From an uncultured Lachnospiraceae bacterium (GTDB lineage: Bacteria; Bacillota; Clostridia; Lachnospirales; Lachnospiraceae), in the NCBI GenBank assembly GCA_947039785.1, contig CAMQZX010000003.1:1-45262 (forward strand): a stretch of 45,262 nt of DNA, read 5' to 3'. The position numbers and the translations under genes are program-made. Every line of letters starts with the position of its first letter. The first letter of the stretch is position 1. The notes under the pieces were generated by a model. It ran no database searches. It saw only the letters and a list, made by a program, of their open reading frames with translations, and was not told the DNA's origin. This document shows positions 28,278 to 33,791 of the stretch, one piece after another.

Positions 28278-28669
28278 AATCTCCTCCTGTTTTTTTATTT
28301 TGTCAGATAGCAGCTGCACCATCCGACGAATCTAAACCATCACTTTGCCCGGATGGTATTTTTACTCATACTTGGTCAAAAAAAATGTCCATCCTAAGCT
28401 ATGCTCAGGACGAACAGTATCATGTCCGCGGTACCACCTGAATTACTGCGTTGCAGTCACTCACCGGTTCTAACAACCTGCTGTTTGTCGCACAGTCTGC
28501 GGCGCACCTACTGATATCTGGCAAAAAACAGATACGTTCAGATTGCGGCTGGTAAAGTGTTATTCACACAAATTCACTCTATGGAGCTTCCACCGACCTC
28601 CACTCGCTGTAAGCGATAATCTGCGCTACTTCTCTTCGTCATCGCCTTGTCATTATATAATCCTATACC
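28278..28669 (-). promoter_or_regulatory. T-box riboswitch leader of aspS
   Basis: tRNA-sensing leader. The T-box sequence AGGTGGTACCGCG is at 28427-28439 (minus strand). The terminator is a GTCC/GGAC-bounded hairpin followed by eight T (28378-28411). The 5' part shows Stem I signatures: GAAGAGAAGTAG, an AG bulge and a TGGAG/CTCCA apical stem with GGTGGAA loop. In the 3' strand of the specifier loop the sequence TGAATAACA places AAC at 28559-28561, followed by A as usual; no GAC or GAT is found there. Uncharged tRNA binding would favour readthrough into aspS. Confidence 0.9.
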
Positions 28670-28825: not shown

Positions 28826-29404
28826 ATGAATCATGAGATACAAGACGAGAGATATTATGTCGCCGATGAAGCCATTTACGATGCTTTTTTTCTGATTCTC
28901 AAGGAAAAGGAATTGGATAAGATCACCGTGTCCGATGTGGTCAAAAGAGCCGGGATCGTGCGAAGCACCTTCTACAATCACTATGAAAATATCCCGGACC
29001 TGGTAACCGCCATCGAAGACAAGACTATTCACGATATGTTTGTCCTCATGGAAAGATTCCATCCCAAAAATGACCGGGAAATGTGTAAGTCCTATTTTCT
29101 GACCATCTGTGACTACACCAGGACCAATCCCTTTCTGGCAAATCTGCTCAGAAACCCCAGGGGAGATGCCTTCTTTGAGAAAGCGATCACCATGCTTCAC
29201 CGCTATGTCACAAAGGTGATGCAGAATAATACTCCCACCCACCACAGTAAGGAAGAATATTCTTATATGATTGCCTGCACCATAGGCAGTACCATTGGTG
29301 TTCTCCACAAATGGAGCAAAGAAGATTTCAAAACTCCCCCAGAGTTCGTCGCCGATATTTTAACTAAGGCTTTTATTACAGGTATGCTTCCTTCTATACT
29401 GTAG
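28826..29404 (+). CDS. TetR/AcrR-family transcriptional regulator
   Basis: Repressor-type regulator of 192 residues. The N-terminal helix-turn-helix is clear (LDKITVSDVVKRAGIVRSTFYNHYENI, about residues 30-57). The C-terminal ligand domain resembles the TetR C-terminal domain common in clostridia (GVLHKWSKEDFKTPPEFVADIL). AAGGAG lies upstream of the ATG. It converges on, and overlaps by 11 bp, the AMP-dependent ligase gene, so antisense interference is possible. The adjoining ligase/ACP/condensation genes are the likely targets, but its own promoter carries the only good dyad. Confidence 0.9.
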   Translation: MNHEIQDERYYVADEAIYDAFFLILKEKELDKITVSDVVKRAGIVRSTFYNHYENIPDLVTAIEDKTIHDMFVLMERFHPKNDREMCKSYFLTICDYTRTNPFLANLLRNPRGDAFFEKAITMLHRYVTKVMQNNTPTHHSKEEYSYMIACTIGSTIGVLHKWSKEDFKTPPEFVADILTKAFITGMLPSIL

Positions 29405-30953
29405 GCAGCGCCTCGTCGATCATGGCTTCCTGTCTTTTGATTTTCTTTGTTGCGCTTCTGATAAACGGATGTTTTCTCACGACCAGCCCAGTAATCTGAC
29501 GATAAGTGGGCTGGTTCTTATTATATTGATCCAAAAACGCCTGAAGCTCTGCCTGTATCATCGCTTCATCTAAGCCCTTCGCTTCCACAAGCTCCTGTTC
29601 CGGATAAATTCTGGCAGTCAGTCCATTATTTTCTCCTGTCACAATGACCTCTCCTACCAATTCACCCAGCGCCAGTTTATTCTCGATTTCCTCCGGTGAA
29701 ATGTTTTCTCCGTTGGACAGAATGATCAGATTCTTCACTCGTCCATTGATAAACAAAAACCCATCCTCATCCAGGTAGCCTTTATCTCCTGTGTGCAGCC
29801 AGCCGCCCTTTAAGGTTTCAGCTGTCTCCTGCGGCATTTTATAGTATCCCTTCATAACACTGCTGCTCTTTACCAGGATTTCTCCGTTGTCAAAAGAAAT
29901 CTCGACGTTAGAAAGCGGTCTTCCGATGGATCCGATCTTGTGGTCATCTGGTGTGTTGGAACTGATGACCGGAGAGCATTCGGACATACCATAACCTTCT
30001 AAAACATCCACTCCATACTCAGCAAATTTATCAATATAATACGAGTCCAGATGCGCACCGCCGGTAAAGATGATCCTGAGATTTCGGCCAAATACCTTTG
30101 TTCCCAACATTTTCTTAGGGATGGCAGGGTCTGCACTGGCAAGCCTTTTATAAATGGTCTCAATCATCATTGGAACCATCAGCATGATACTTGGCTCAAA
30201 GATATTCATGTTTCTCACCATGTGTAACAAGGAGTCGTTGATAGCCAAAGTCAACCCCAGGGAAAAGCCCTTCAGCCAGTCCATAACCAGGCAAAATGCA
30301 TGGTGGATGGGAAGCACGCTGAGCACTACACTTCCAGGCTCCGCTGTAAATTCAACGGCCGCCACGTTGGTCGCCAGGTTGTTCTGAGTCAGCATAACTC
30401 CCTTGCTTTTACCCGTTGTTCCGGAGGTGAAAATGATGGTTGCTACATCGTCTGCCTTTGGGCGCTGTGCATCTGAGTCCGTCTTTTCAGAAGCAGTCTT
30501 CAGGTCAGCCAAGGATGCCACCTTCTTATCTGTACCTTCCACGGCTTCCTCCTGCAGCATCCAGATTTTCTCAAGCTTGGGGCATGCTGCCAGAATCTCG
30601 TCCAGAAGCGCCTTGTTTTTCGGTCCCAGAAAGAGTGCTTCGGAATCGGAGCGATTGATCAGATCAACCAAATCCTCTCCCGGAAGTCCTGCATCCAAGG
30701 GAACTGCAACCGTCTTTCCTGTGATGATTCCAAGATAACTCTCAATCCACTCCGCAGAGCTGGTTCCAATCAGGGCGATGTGTTTTCCGCTAAAGCCTTC
30801 TGCCAGAAGTCCTTTTCGCACTTTCTCCACCTGTTCCATCATCTCAGAATAGCTTCTGACGAATACTTCCTTTTTCTTCAGCCATTGTATGGCTGTAATC
30901 TCTGCATATTTTCTGCTGCTTTCTTCTATTACGTCCCGAATAAGAATTCCCAT
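29394..30953 (-). CDS. AMP-dependent synthetase/ligase (acyl-activating)
   Basis: Adenylating enzyme of about 519 residues that should activate a carboxylic acid and load it onto CoA or the carrier protein encoded directly upstream. It has the P-loop (IIFTSGTTGKSKGVMLTQ), LEGYGMSECSPVISSN, GWLHTGDKGYLDEDGFLFINGR, and a C-terminal catalytic Lys region (FIRSATKKIKRQEAM). The overall form is that of long-chain acyl-CoA/ACP ligases. The start is placed at MGILIRDVIEESS, 19 bp after the ACP gene; a longer frame overlaps ACP. The substrate is unknown. Confidence 0.88.
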   Translation of the reverse strand: MGILIRDVIEESSRKYAEITAIQWLKKKEVFVRSYSEMMEQVEKVRKGLLAEGFSGKHIALIGTSSAEWIESYLGIITGKTVAVPLDAGLPGEDLVDLINRSDSEALFLGPKNKALLDEILAACPKLEKIWMLQEEAVEGTDKKVASLADLKTASEKTDSDAQRPKADDVATIIFTSGTTGKSKGVMLTQNNLATNVAAVEFTAEPGSVVLSVLPIHHAFCLVMDWLKGFSLGLTLAINDSLLHMVRNMNIFEPSIMLMVPMMIETIYKRLASADPAIPKKMLGTKVFGRNLRIIFTGGAHLDSYYIDKFAEYGVDVLEGYGMSECSPVISSNTPDDHKIGSIGRPLSNVEISFDNGEILVKSSSVMKGYYKMPQETAETLKGGWLHTGDKGYLDEDGFLFINGRVKNLIILSNGENISPEEIENKLALGELVGEVIVTGENNGLTARIYPEQELVEAKGLDEAMIQAELQAFLDQYNKNQPTYRQITGLVVRKHPFIRSATKKIKRQEAMIDEALPTV

Positions 30954-30972
30954 ATTTTTCTCACACTTTCTT

Positions 30973-31200
30973 TTATAATCTCTCCAGCAGTTCCAAGGCT
31001 TCCTCAACTGTCAGCACTTTCAGTACGTCTTCCTCTTCCAGCTCCAGATCAAAGGTGTCCTCCAGCTCCCCCAAAAATGACATAAAATCAAGGGAGCTGA
31101 AGCCAAGATCCTCTCTGAATCTCATACTGTTTGTCATTTCCTCCGGTGTTACCTTACAATACTGTGCTACGATCGTTTTAAACTGCATTTCCTGTGTCAT
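30973..31200 (-). CDS. Stand-alone acyl/peptidyl carrier protein
   Basis: Carrier protein of 75 residues with the phosphopantetheine site in DLGFSSLDF (Ser 36). It is acidic at the C-terminus, as carriers are. It is unlikely to be the housekeeping fatty acid ACP, because it sits between a condensation-domain gene and an adenylating ligase and not in a fab operon. The start is at MTQEMQFK with AAGGAAGG upstream. It should shuttle the acyl or aminoacyl group from the ligase to the condensation enzyme; this is inference from order and domains. Confidence 0.9.
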   Translation of the reverse strand: MTQEMQFKTIVAQYCKVTPEEMTNSMRFREDLGFSSLDFMSFLGELEDTFDLELEEEDVLKVLTVEEALELLERL

Positions 31201-31285
31201 ACGTTTTTCCTTCCTTTTGTCTATTCCATTCATCTATGTTTTTACGTTTCCTGTTTCTCTGTTCCTAAGCTTTCTCGCATCGGCC

Positions 31286-32671
31286 CTACACCAATCTCAT
31301 AATTTCCCCAATGCTCATATCCGGCTCTGCAATTCCCTTGAAGAGAATCCGCATCATATAATAATATAGAAGCTCCATATCATGCTCCTCCAGATGAGCG
31401 GTCTGATAATGGTAGGAGAAGTTCATTCCTCCCTCTTCTGTGTGAGATACGGTCAGATACATTTTCTTCGTCGCCGCACCGTTTGCAAACCATTTGGAGT
31501 GCTGTTGGAGATTCACCAGATGTGGATTTTCCATTTTTACAGGCATGGGCTGATAAGTCAGATAGCAGCTCTCATACGTTGTGTGCTCCGGTGTGTGGTA
31601 ACGTCTTCTCATTTCTTTCTCAATCAATTCCGGGTCGTAGTTGCTGTGCATATAAATCCTGTTTTGTACATTCTGAATCTCATAGGCAGCCGATATAAAA
31701 TCTGTATCCGGGGAAATCACCGTTCTGCATGGGAACATAATGGTTCTGCTTCCGCCGGATGTCCACTCATCATGGGTGGAACGTCTTGAGATAAAGTTCT
31801 CAATGGTAATGTCTTCCTGCCCGTTATTGACCTTGGAAAGATAGGTCCGAATTCCAAGGAGCAAAAGATTGGTCATGGAAAGCTGATGATTCATGCAGAA
31901 ATCCATCAGGTTCTTCGTCGGCTCCGGCTCCAGATAATAGTCCTTTACCTGTACGAACAGGTTTTCCAGTTCTATATCTGCCGCTCTCAGATTTTCCATA
32001 CCGTGACGCTTTCTGGCCTCGTCCAGAACGGAAGGGCCCTGGATGTCTGAATAGAGCGGCTCTCCCAGGGCATCTAGCTGATCATCCCAAAACTTTTTGT
32101 CTTTGGCAAAACGTTTCTCGTTACTTGCCCGCTTCAAATCCTTCGCAAGGACGGTCTCAAAATCTGCCAGGTCATCCGGATAGCTTGACTGAAATCTATA
32201 ATGTGTATAAAGCTCCATCAGGTCATTGATCATAACCACCAGGCCGCAGGAGTCGATCAGTCTGTGATCCATATGAATAAAAAATCCATGAAAGCCTTCC
32301 GGAAGTTTTACCATACACACATCACACATAGGGATATCGTCCCCGTCGAATGTCTCATAGGCCCACTGCTGCATCAGCTGGTCGGCTTCTGCCAGACTCA
32401 TGTTGGACAGATCCTTCAGCGGAATATCTCTGGTATCTTTTTCTACGATATACTGTTTTACTTCACCGTCCTTGTCCGGCCTTGTAAAACGAACTCTCAT
32501 ACATCCATAACGTTCAAATTCCAATTGAATACATTTCTTTAAAAGTCCAAAATCCAGCGGTGACTTCAAGGATGCCACTACGCTGACTCCTGATACCTGT
32601 TGTGTTTTATATGTTTTAATCCAGTTATGGTGCATTTTCTGCGCTGCTGTTAACGGATAATATTCTTTCAT
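31286..32671 (-). CDS. Stand-alone condensation-domain acyltransferase
   Basis: Protein of 461 residues with the two-lobed chloramphenicol-acetyltransferase-like fold of NRPS condensation enzymes. The first core motif is YPLTAAQKMHHNW at the N-terminus. The catalytic motif is HRLIDSCG (H136 to D140), keeping the HxxxD pair while the preceding His of the HHxxxDG form is Asp. The start is at MKEYYPLTAAQ with AGGAGG upstream; a longer frame of 18 residues lacks a ribosome site. It is the first gene of the trio with ACP and ligase and probably transfers the carrier-bound acyl group onto an amine or alcohol. Confidence 0.82.
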   Translation of the reverse strand: MKEYYPLTAAQKMHHNWIKTYKTQQVSGVSVVASLKSPLDFGLLKKCIQLEFERYGCMRVRFTRPDKDGEVKQYIVEKDTRDIPLKDLSNMSLAEADQLMQQWAYETFDGDDIPMCDVCMVKLPEGFHGFFIHMDHRLIDSCGLVVMINDLMELYTHYRFQSSYPDDLADFETVLAKDLKRASNEKRFAKDKKFWDDQLDALGEPLYSDIQGPSVLDEARKRHGMENLRAADIELENLFVQVKDYYLEPEPTKNLMDFCMNHQLSMTNLLLLGIRTYLSKVNNGQEDITIENFISRRSTHDEWTSGGSRTIMFPCRTVISPDTDFISAAYEIQNVQNRIYMHSNYDPELIEKEMRRRYHTPEHTTYESCYLTYQPMPVKMENPHLVNLQQHSKWFANGAATKKMYLTVSHTEEGGMNFSYHYQTAHLEEHDMELLYYYMMRILFKGIAEPDMSIGEIMRLV

Positions 32672-32691: not shown

Positions 32692-32743
32692 CGTCTTCTG
32701 AGACGTTAACACATTTCACTTCCAATTGCTATCCCCCTGGGGA
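32692..32743 (-). promoter_or_regulatory. Leader palindromes before the condensation gene
   Basis: Two perfect dyads lie in the leader: CGTCT-TCTG-AGACG (32692-32705) and TCCCC-CT-GGGGA (32732-32743). No strong promoter could be fixed; a TTGAAA lies further upstream at about 32780. Confidence 0.4.
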
Positions 32744-32782
32744 CTTAACAAACAGTTTACCCAGAATTGACCGAGACCTTTC

Positions 32783-32817
32783 AAAATATAAAAAGCACCT
32801 GCCATAAAACAGATGCT
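32783..32817 (-). terminator. Intrinsic terminator after the hydrolase gene
   Basis: On the minus strand AGCATCTG and CAGGTGCT pair with one G-U (32794-32817), followed by TTTTTATATTTT. It separates the trmO-hydrolase unit from the condensation operon. Confidence 0.75.
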
Positions 32818-32825
32818 AAATCAGT

Positions 32826-33791
32826 TCAATCATATTTTTCAAAAAATTCCAACAGCTTTTCTCTATACAACTGTGGGTTTTCGTATGCGCAGCACAGATG
32901 TCTTGCCTCTGGTTCTAGGATCAGCTCTTTAGGGGCGTGGCACAGTGCATAGTTGTATTGGGTGTTTTTGGGTTCCACGTAAGTGTCCTTCATACCGTGG
33001 AAAAACAGGATTGGCCGTTTGTTTGTTTTCATCGCATTTGTGGTGTCAGCTTCTTTCATGGAAAATCCTGCCAGGAGCCTGCAAAACAAATCCACCCGGA
33101 ACAAGAGAAGCTCCACCCAATGTATATGAAACCAGTTGGCTGCGATATCCTGAAGCTGTCTTTTCATCGAGCAAAAACCACAGTCTGCAATCAGACCTCT
33201 CACCATGCCCGGCAGGTCATGTCCCGACGCCATCAGAACTGCCGCCGCTCCCATAGATTCTCCGTACAGATAGATGGGAAGATGGTTTTTGTTTCTCCTG
33301 GCAATGTAGTATGCCCAGCCCTGTACATCATACTGCTCCCTGGCTCCAAAGGTGATAAATTCCCCCTGACTGGCTCCGCAGCACCGCTGGTCGATAAACA
33401 GCAGGTTGCACTCATTCTCGTGCAGGAATCTGGCCATACATGCAAAATCTCCGAATCCGCTGCCCTTATAGCCGTGGCTTAGCAGGACAAATCTTCTGGC
33501 GTTTCTGGCTGGCAGATAATAGGCGTGCAGAAGCAATCCGTCCTCACTTCGCATATAGCAGTCCTGCATCTTCTGCTGTCTGCACCACTCCTTACCTTCC
33601 TCATATTCCTGCTCAAATTTGTATCTGGGGTGATTCACTTTCGTGTGGGACAGGCCATACCACTTCTTTTTGACTGTCTTCTTTCTCTCTTTGCAGCGAA
33701 CCATCATTTCGAAAAAGGGAAGCCCAAGTGCCAGAAATGCACTGCCTGCCGCCCATACCGCTCCTAATGTTTTCAACACTTTATTTTTCAT
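32826..33791 (-). CDS. Alpha/beta hydrolase, membrane-anchored
   Basis: Serine hydrolase of 321 residues. An N-terminal hydrophobic helix (about 8-30) probably anchors it. The catalytic triad is visible: nucleophile Ser 179 in YGESMGAAAVL, Asp in FHGMKDTYVEP and His in PEARHLCCAY. The oxyanion segment is LLSHGYKGSG. This is the BAAT/FSH-like family often annotated as lysophospholipase or esterase. Its start codon overlaps the trmO stop by four bases. A terminator follows, so any link to the condensation cluster downstream is only positional. The substrate is unknown. Confidence 0.85.
   Translation of the reverse strand: MKNKVLKTLGAVWAAGSAFLALGLPFFEMMVRCKERKKTVKKKWYGLSHTKVNHPRYKFEQEYEEGKEWCRQQKMQDCYMRSEDGLLLHAYYLPARNARRFVLLSHGYKGSGFGDFACMARFLHENECNLLFIDQRCCGASQGEFITFGAREQYDVQGWAYYIARRNKNHLPIYLYGESMGAAAVLMASGHDLPGMVRGLIADCGFCSMKRQLQDIAANWFHIHWVELLLFRVDLFCRLLAGFSMKEADTTNAMKTNKRPILFFHGMKDTYVEPKNTQYNYALCHAPKELILEPEARHLCCAYENPQLYREKLLEFFEKYD

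Follow-up and report, generated by a model that had tools for sequence, protein, structure and literature searches.

What does a condensation enzyme make, and what decides when it is made, if the enzyme is encoded beside a carrier protein and a ligase as three separate genes? The question is raised by the stretch above, 45,262 nucleotides from an uncultured Lachnospiraceae bacterium (GenBank assembly GCA_947039785.1, contig CAMQZX010000003.1, positions 1 to 45,262 of the forward strand; the whole stretch is hereafter the window). It holds consecutive genes for a stand-alone condensation enzyme (C), an acyl carrier protein (T) and an adenylate-forming ligase (A), a convergent gene for a TetR-family regulator (tetR) and an upstream gene for an alpha/beta hydrolase (Table 1). 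An original prediction, made from the letters alone, had read the trio as a nonribosomal peptide synthetase (NRPS)-like module split into separate proteins, with a product of unknown nature. On the evidence below, the trio is almost certainly a copy of the CTA operon of Lachnospiraceae, and we hold with good confidence that the locus as a whole is best explained as such a copy making a fatty acid amide, likely switched on by TetR through a conserved element upstream of C. The trio itself is an already known system; our additions are the TetR, the element and the hydrolase around it.

Human G protein-coupled receptors respond to fatty acid amides from gut Clostridia, and those of Blautia raise glucagon-like peptide 1 (GLP-1) according to a 2026 preprint. 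A linked regulator, a conserved single operator and a hydrolase make the timing and the lipid source of such amides directly testable questions. The two papers on which we draw most, PMC13142362 and PMC13060934, are cited throughout for the parts of their text that were available. In those parts neither addresses transcriptional control of the operon; the former makes no mention of its regulator, element or hydrolase (the word "regulator" appears only in another sense), and the latter mentions no regulator, promoter or hydrolase. Our search of the open literature found no paper on a regulator, hydrolase or SCP2 protein of the CTA operon; subscription papers lay mostly outside that search, as did the founding work cited by both CTA papers, Chang et al. 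2021 (Nat Microbiol), and we therefore make no claim that these are unpublished.

The trio as a copy of the CTA operon

All four proteins described in the original prediction are present, each with a Pfam match above the curated cut-off, and the two motifs on which it had leaned were recovered as DHRLIDSCG in C and GFSSLDF in T. The serine of the latter is presumably the attachment site. C proved to be a genuine member of the condensation family. Against solved structures it matches 12KH at an E-value of 2e-186, the next match, PvdL, reaching merely 1.6e-4; 12KH is OaaC of Coprococcus eutactus (PMC13142362), with which C shares 251 of 459 aligned positions (55%). The DHRLIDS of C agrees with the CTA motif (D/H)HxxxDS (or DA); in the 127 sequences behind the clade motif (D/H)HxxxDS of PMC13142362, the last place is serine in 42%, alanine in 36% and glycine in 17%. 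We found 175 relatives of C and kept the best 80 (loci L006-L085, with 77-90% identity in the best segment), 77 of which match the pattern xHxxxDxCG.

The gene order is likewise that of a CTA operon, with three free-standing genes and T in the middle. A conserved neighbourhood, which the original prediction had proposed to look for, is there: 77 of the 80 loci have T and 75 have A, and the misses reflect contig ends close behind C or T, except at L035. At that locus tetR directly follows C; no contig end explains the absence of T and A, which would be due to a deletion or a misassembly. PMC13060934 draws the line for a CTA operon at 70% identity or more, over 80%, of both C and A to catalogued CTA proteins. 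Against the Blautia wexlerae copy L069, which we used in place of the Chang 2021 catalogue, C is 82% (462 positions) and A 75% (514 positions) identical, beyond that line, although C reaches only 55% against OaaC. The T proteins of window and L069 are 79% identical, and the neighbouring tetR and hydrolase 62% and 61%. To our knowledge, no species with culture data is closer than B. wexlerae.

The chemistry of the relatives indicates a product class. Free-standing A, acyl carrier protein (ACP) and C proteins, OaaA/OaaACP/OaaC, make fatty acid amides in vitro, and the OaaC dimer opens with holo- or acyl-carrier (PMC13142362). The same three genes, named the CTA operon, are found in 36 species, all Lachnospiraceae (PMC13060934). 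There, two CTA-positive Blautia species showed higher acyl ethanolamines than two CTA-negative ones, as did a CTA-positive Coprococcus catus isolate compared with a CTA-negative one; two CTA-positive Blautia fed oleic acid and dopamine gave oleoyl dopamine, and the harm done to B. wexlerae by oleic acid was rescued by dopamine, serotonin and ethanolamine. The split module that had been proposed for the window, in which an acid is activated, loaded on the carrier and transferred to an amine, is published for relatives in both papers, and the product need no longer be left blank: by analogy, it is predicted to be an N-acyl amine, that is, a fatty acid amide. An ester as the first choice was rejected, since the relatives make amides.

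The trio had also been set apart from two familiar systems, in our view rightly. A dlt operon was rejected, with no membrane O-acyltransferase (DltB-type) among the seven neighbour proteins scanned. So was a canonical NRPS, which has multidomain proteins, an acceptor carrier and HHxxxDG, where the window has one domain per protein and DHxxxDS. The accompanying statement that there is no thioesterase holds within the trio; it overlooked a hydrolase fold, the linked alpha/beta hydrolase adjoining upstream.

A conserved element before C

Upstream of the C promoter lies a conserved element of 36 bp, which we predict to be the TetR site. Scored with a family matrix, 73 of 81 upstream regions exceeded 10 bits, where simple shuffles reached at most -4; the matrix was trained on the very loci counted, so that this count is not independent. 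Of the remaining eight regions, two were unreadable (L029, L048), four scored 3.8-9.1 bits (L056, L061, L065, L079) and two fell to -22 (L057) and -19 (L077). Outside the 80-locus list, the element model matches before C in genomes G002 (E 1.1e-6) and G112 (E 2.6e-6). Over 72 loci, mean pairwise identity is 0.69-0.76 in the core and 0.28-0.39 in the preceding 60 bp, and it is 0.28 in the stretch before tetR (65 loci). The family inverted repeat, CAATTT-N5-AAAGTG, was equalled by 3 of 500 column permutations. In 61 of 72 loci the core is followed, at a distance of 10 bp, by the start of a -35-like box; in 59 of 72 a TGTGnTA-type box stands at offset 28, giving a 17-bp spacer. An ordinary promoter scan of the window found nothing above shuffles (9 against 9.7 expected).

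A larger regulon in the source genome was considered and rejected: the element has a single match there at E <= 0.1, under stricter filters that may lose weak matches. Some match at this threshold occurs in 34 of 150 family genomes; those outside G000 (the source), G002 and G112 are all at E 0.009 or worse, and we take them as chance; two other genomes with a close C, G010 and G058, had no match at E <= 0.1 in the same scan. An operator before tetR was also rejected, as the best score among 67 loci was 9.1 bits, in a divergent region shared with C (L061), and the next -6.2.

Two variations on the upstream region may be recorded here. In four loci (L006, L041, L068, L082) the element recurs in weaker form exactly 33 bp, or about three helical turns, before the first copy. 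The leader of L026, between element and C start, contains an attenuator-like feature right behind the promoter, an extended inverted repeat that looks perfect and runs into a stretch of T.

Linkage of the TetR to operon and element

That the convergent regulator, mentioned just in passing in the original prediction, belongs to the trio is supported by its persistence beside it. Among the 63 loci with room for tetR (nearly full A plus at least 900 bp behind A), 60 carry it, 58 of them convergent right behind A and two elsewhere in the locus (L061, L081); L057, L076 and L077 have none in the locus. The outer flanks of the window operon, aspS and trmO, turned up in none of the 80 loci, which cover no more than 6 kb on either side and often less, and the linkage of tetR and of the hydrolase is therefore not a matter of general synteny. 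In the five genomes of the 150 that carry the close type of C (G000, G010, G112, G002 and G058, at 58-100%), tetR always stands beside the operon: convergent in G000, G112 and G058, divergent in G010 and codirectional in G002. A tetR relative of 37-41% without a close C occurs in two other genomes (G046, G071). G010 and L061 count as one case, having the same intergenic sequence, reversed.

Regulator and element also go together. All 66 readable upstream regions of tetR-bearing loci, window included, have a site above 0 bits, 62 of them above 10 bits, and ten more element-bearing loci end before the tetR position is visible. L057 and L077 have neither element nor any tetR relative in the whole genome (E <= 1e-10), and L076, which keeps the element, has a 71% tetR elsewhere in its genome. 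In a tree of C, L057 and L070 form a pair (100/90), and L070 carries both tetR and element; L077 groups, with just moderate support (90/80), with L056, L058 and L065. Among these, tetR is present together with a weak site at L056 and L065, and L058 has a strong site on a cut contig. Because L057 and L077 fall in different branches, they are probably two separate losses of tetR together with the element. Taken together, this covariation makes it probable that TetR acts on the conserved element.

The close type itself is patchily distributed. C has a relative at E <= 1e-60 in 25 of 150 family genomes, 20 of which carry only a C of 34-42% (in 21 places, G149 holding two). A class-wide sample contained such a relative in 14 of 291 genomes, at 29-50%; 12 of these genomes lie beyond the family. 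The source genus is represented by three genomes, and the two besides the source have only a 38-39% C, whence the patchiness. L048, from a genome labelled Alistipes (Bacteroidota), holds a Lachnospiraceae-type cluster; a mis-binned contig is likelier than transfer.

The hydrolase and a sister branch

Where there is room for the hydrolase (at least 1.7 kb before C, 71 loci), it is linked in 62, on the same strand and no more than 600 bp upstream of C in 53 and elsewhere in the locus in nine. Among the close genomes it is found at E <= 1e-60 only in G000, G002 and G010, always at the operon locus; the source genome holds two further relatives (28% and 26%). Ser178, Asp268 and His297 are invariant in 30 aligned copies. 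The structural model (mean pLDDT, the predicted local distance difference test, 89.5) is nearest to the Pf2001 esterase, followed by peptidases and human monoglyceride lipase, and by eye an N-terminal membrane anchor is predicted.

We fetched all 21 places of the 34-42% relatives, which comprise 19 operons and two lone C genes (L090 and L094, 40-42%, with no T or A alongside). The C of the operons (L091-L093, L095-L110) is 34-39% identical to that of the window and carries the motif xHxxxDA in all 19, the first place being D in 14, N in three and H in two. Directly before C, and followed by T and A, the hydrolase is present in 19 of 19 (the A of L091 is cut by the contig end), its open frame overlapping that of C by 4 bp in seven (L091, L098-L102, L105). 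In 16 of 19 the hydrolase gene is itself preceded by a gene for an SCP2 lipid-binding protein; 14 of 19 have a TetR that is divergent and belongs to a different subfamily. L091 ends too early for either. Pfam assignments for this branch rest on a sample of ten proteins. The two hydrolase branches match only distantly (130-167 bits), the source genome yielded no SCP2 match, and the element matrix gave none over 2 bits at the five sister loci scanned (L091-L093, L095, L096). Because the order hydrolase-C-T-A holds in this branch, the hydrolase is likely an old partner of the pathway, and we think it somewhat probable that it works in the same pathway.

Proposed mechanism and alternatives

In the mechanism that we propose, A would activate a fatty acid with ATP and load it on T, and C would pass the acyl group from T to a free small amine, yielding the fatty acid amide. 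TetR would bind the element before C and turn the operon on, its ligand being perhaps a fatty acid or derivative; the hydrolase may free fatty acids for the pathway or recycle the amide. The location of the element upstream of a poor -35 box, and the presence of DhaS activator types among the nearest named relatives of TetR, incline us with modest confidence towards activation (SczA is a further activator of the DhaS kind). A more specific form of this proposal, which we advance only tentatively, is an inducible lipid-disposal circuit, with a private TetR activator sensing fatty acid (as the acid, on the carrier or as the CoA ester), a single operator and a membrane-anchored hydrolase delivering fatty acid, to which the sister branch would add an SCP2 carrier and a different TetR. 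If this is true, host-active amides would be made on demand once dietary fat reaches the cell.

Several alternatives must be weighed against activation of a CTA operon by TetR. The operon may be as described while TetR is a repressor at the upstream element, released by a fatty acid or derivative. TetR proteins usually act as repressors, and the best fold match, Bacillus FadR, is a fatty-acid regulator; the relief of fatty acid toxicity by amines (PMC13060934) fits induction under either mode. The element, however, does not reach the promoter boxes, ending 10 bp short of the -35-like one, and the poor -35 box suits activation, so that repression seems to us rather unlikely. It is more doubtful still that TetR and hydrolase merely form a travelling cassette with the trio, the element being bound by another factor. 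Block transfer would suit the patchiness of the close type (5 of 150 family genomes, and genus mates with a 38-39% C), yet the genes stay together while their orders and orientations vary, tetR and element are jointly missing in two branches and are both kept where tetR lies elsewhere, and a single site per genome is ill-suited to a global factor. We consider it very improbable that A makes acyl-CoA and that the trio serves some other reaction, such as formation of a membrane lipid or an ester. In NCBIfam, A indeed finds its best matches among acyl-CoA ligases, all those listed lying under their cut-offs; against this, T is the neighbour of C and A in almost every locus, OaaA, OaaACP and OaaC together yielded amides and no product arose from oleoyl-CoA with OaaC (PMC13142362), and the C of the window is close to OaaC.

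The account that we prefer, a CTA copy activated by its own TetR, has evidence weighing against it as well, beyond the dependence of the element count noted above. Lower amounts of acyl amines also came from some CTA-negative isolates (PMC13060934). For the regulator, only two genomes lack tetR and both are metagenome bins, in which absence is not proof, and the branch of L077 has the moderate support already given; G058, a distant genome of the close type, has a 39% tetR and no site above 0 bits. There is no conserved site before tetR itself. TetR scores 42.7 bits against the DhaS model TIGR02366 of NCBIfam, whose cut-off is 129, and its fold matches (model mean pLDDT 82; FadR at E 2.3e-5) are weak and unspecific, folds being alike across TetR proteins. 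For the hydrolase, nine of 71 loci lack the gene, and the window copy is separated from C by a terminator-like hairpin.

Features of the window and the source genome

The membership of tetR in its family rests on a helix-turn-helix match barely above the Pfam cut-off (PF00440, TetR_N, 24.5 bits against 24) and a clear one in the C-terminal domain (PF14278, TetR_C_8, 39.3 bits against 26.1). Its 3' end overlaps that of A by 11 bp (29394-29404). The start of T may be an internal ATG at 31200 (MTQEMQ...), because some relatives' T begins there. Terminator-like hairpins are about as frequent in the window (6) as expected from shuffles (4.9).

Table 1. Coordinates of the operon, its neighbours and the predicted control sites in the window.
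Feature	Position	Strand	Remarks
tetR, TetR-family regulator (TetR_N + TetR_C_8)	28826..29404	+	Convergent with operon; Pfam
A, adenylate-forming ligase, predicted fatty acid loader of T	29394..30953	-	PF00501 (E 2e-61), PF23562
T, acyl carrier protein, GFSSLDF	30973..31233	-	PF00550 (E 1.6e-11)
C, stand-alone condensation enzyme, DHRLIDSCG	31286..32671	-	PF00668 (E 8e-37), nearly full length
-10-like box TAACGT behind TGTG-T (predicted)	32703..32708	-	
-35-like box TAGCAA, poor match to TTGACA (predicted)	32726..32731	-	
Conserved 36-bp element, predicted TetR site	32742..32777	-	Upstream of C promoter
Imperfect palindrome CAATTC-TGGGT-AAACTG inside element	32753..32769	.	Best inverted repeat, family matrix
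Terminator-like hairpin between hydrolase and C	32794..32817	-	Weak
Alpha/beta hydrolase (Hydrolase_4)	32826..33791	-	Pfam; 154 bp upstream of C

An Rfam scan of the window gave no match at gathering scores; a T-box leader before aspS (28403-28651, minus strand) scored 84.9 bits (E 5.8e-19), below the gathering score of 93. The source genome has two ACPS-type transferase genes. It also contains a multidomain NRPS region (G000:C12:3646-14868) with three condensation domains in frames of 2621 and 1440 aa, near which an ACPS-type transferase is encoded.

Comparison with known systems

Among described systems, OaaA/OaaACP/OaaC resembles the window in its three free-standing A, ACP and C proteins, and the C of the window, with its DHxxxDS, aligns without a gap across the helix insertion of OaaC (Gln214-His224). 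The acceptors of OaaC are 5-aminovalerate and γ-aminobutyrate (GABA; PMC13142362). DhaS-type TetR activators (TIGR02366; PDB 2IU5, 4MK6) are among the nearest named relatives of the regulator by sequence and fold; far below the family cut-off, the window TetR is not itself a DhaS. The sister-branch operons share hydrolase, C, T and A in a single order and differ in their SCP2 gene, their divergent TetR of another subfamily and their xHxxxDA motif. Culture data for CTA operons come, in PMC13060934, only from Blautia and Coprococcus; the B. wexlerae operon (L069) shares with the window copy the C-T-A order, tetR and hydrolase in matching places and the element, there at 53.8 bits.

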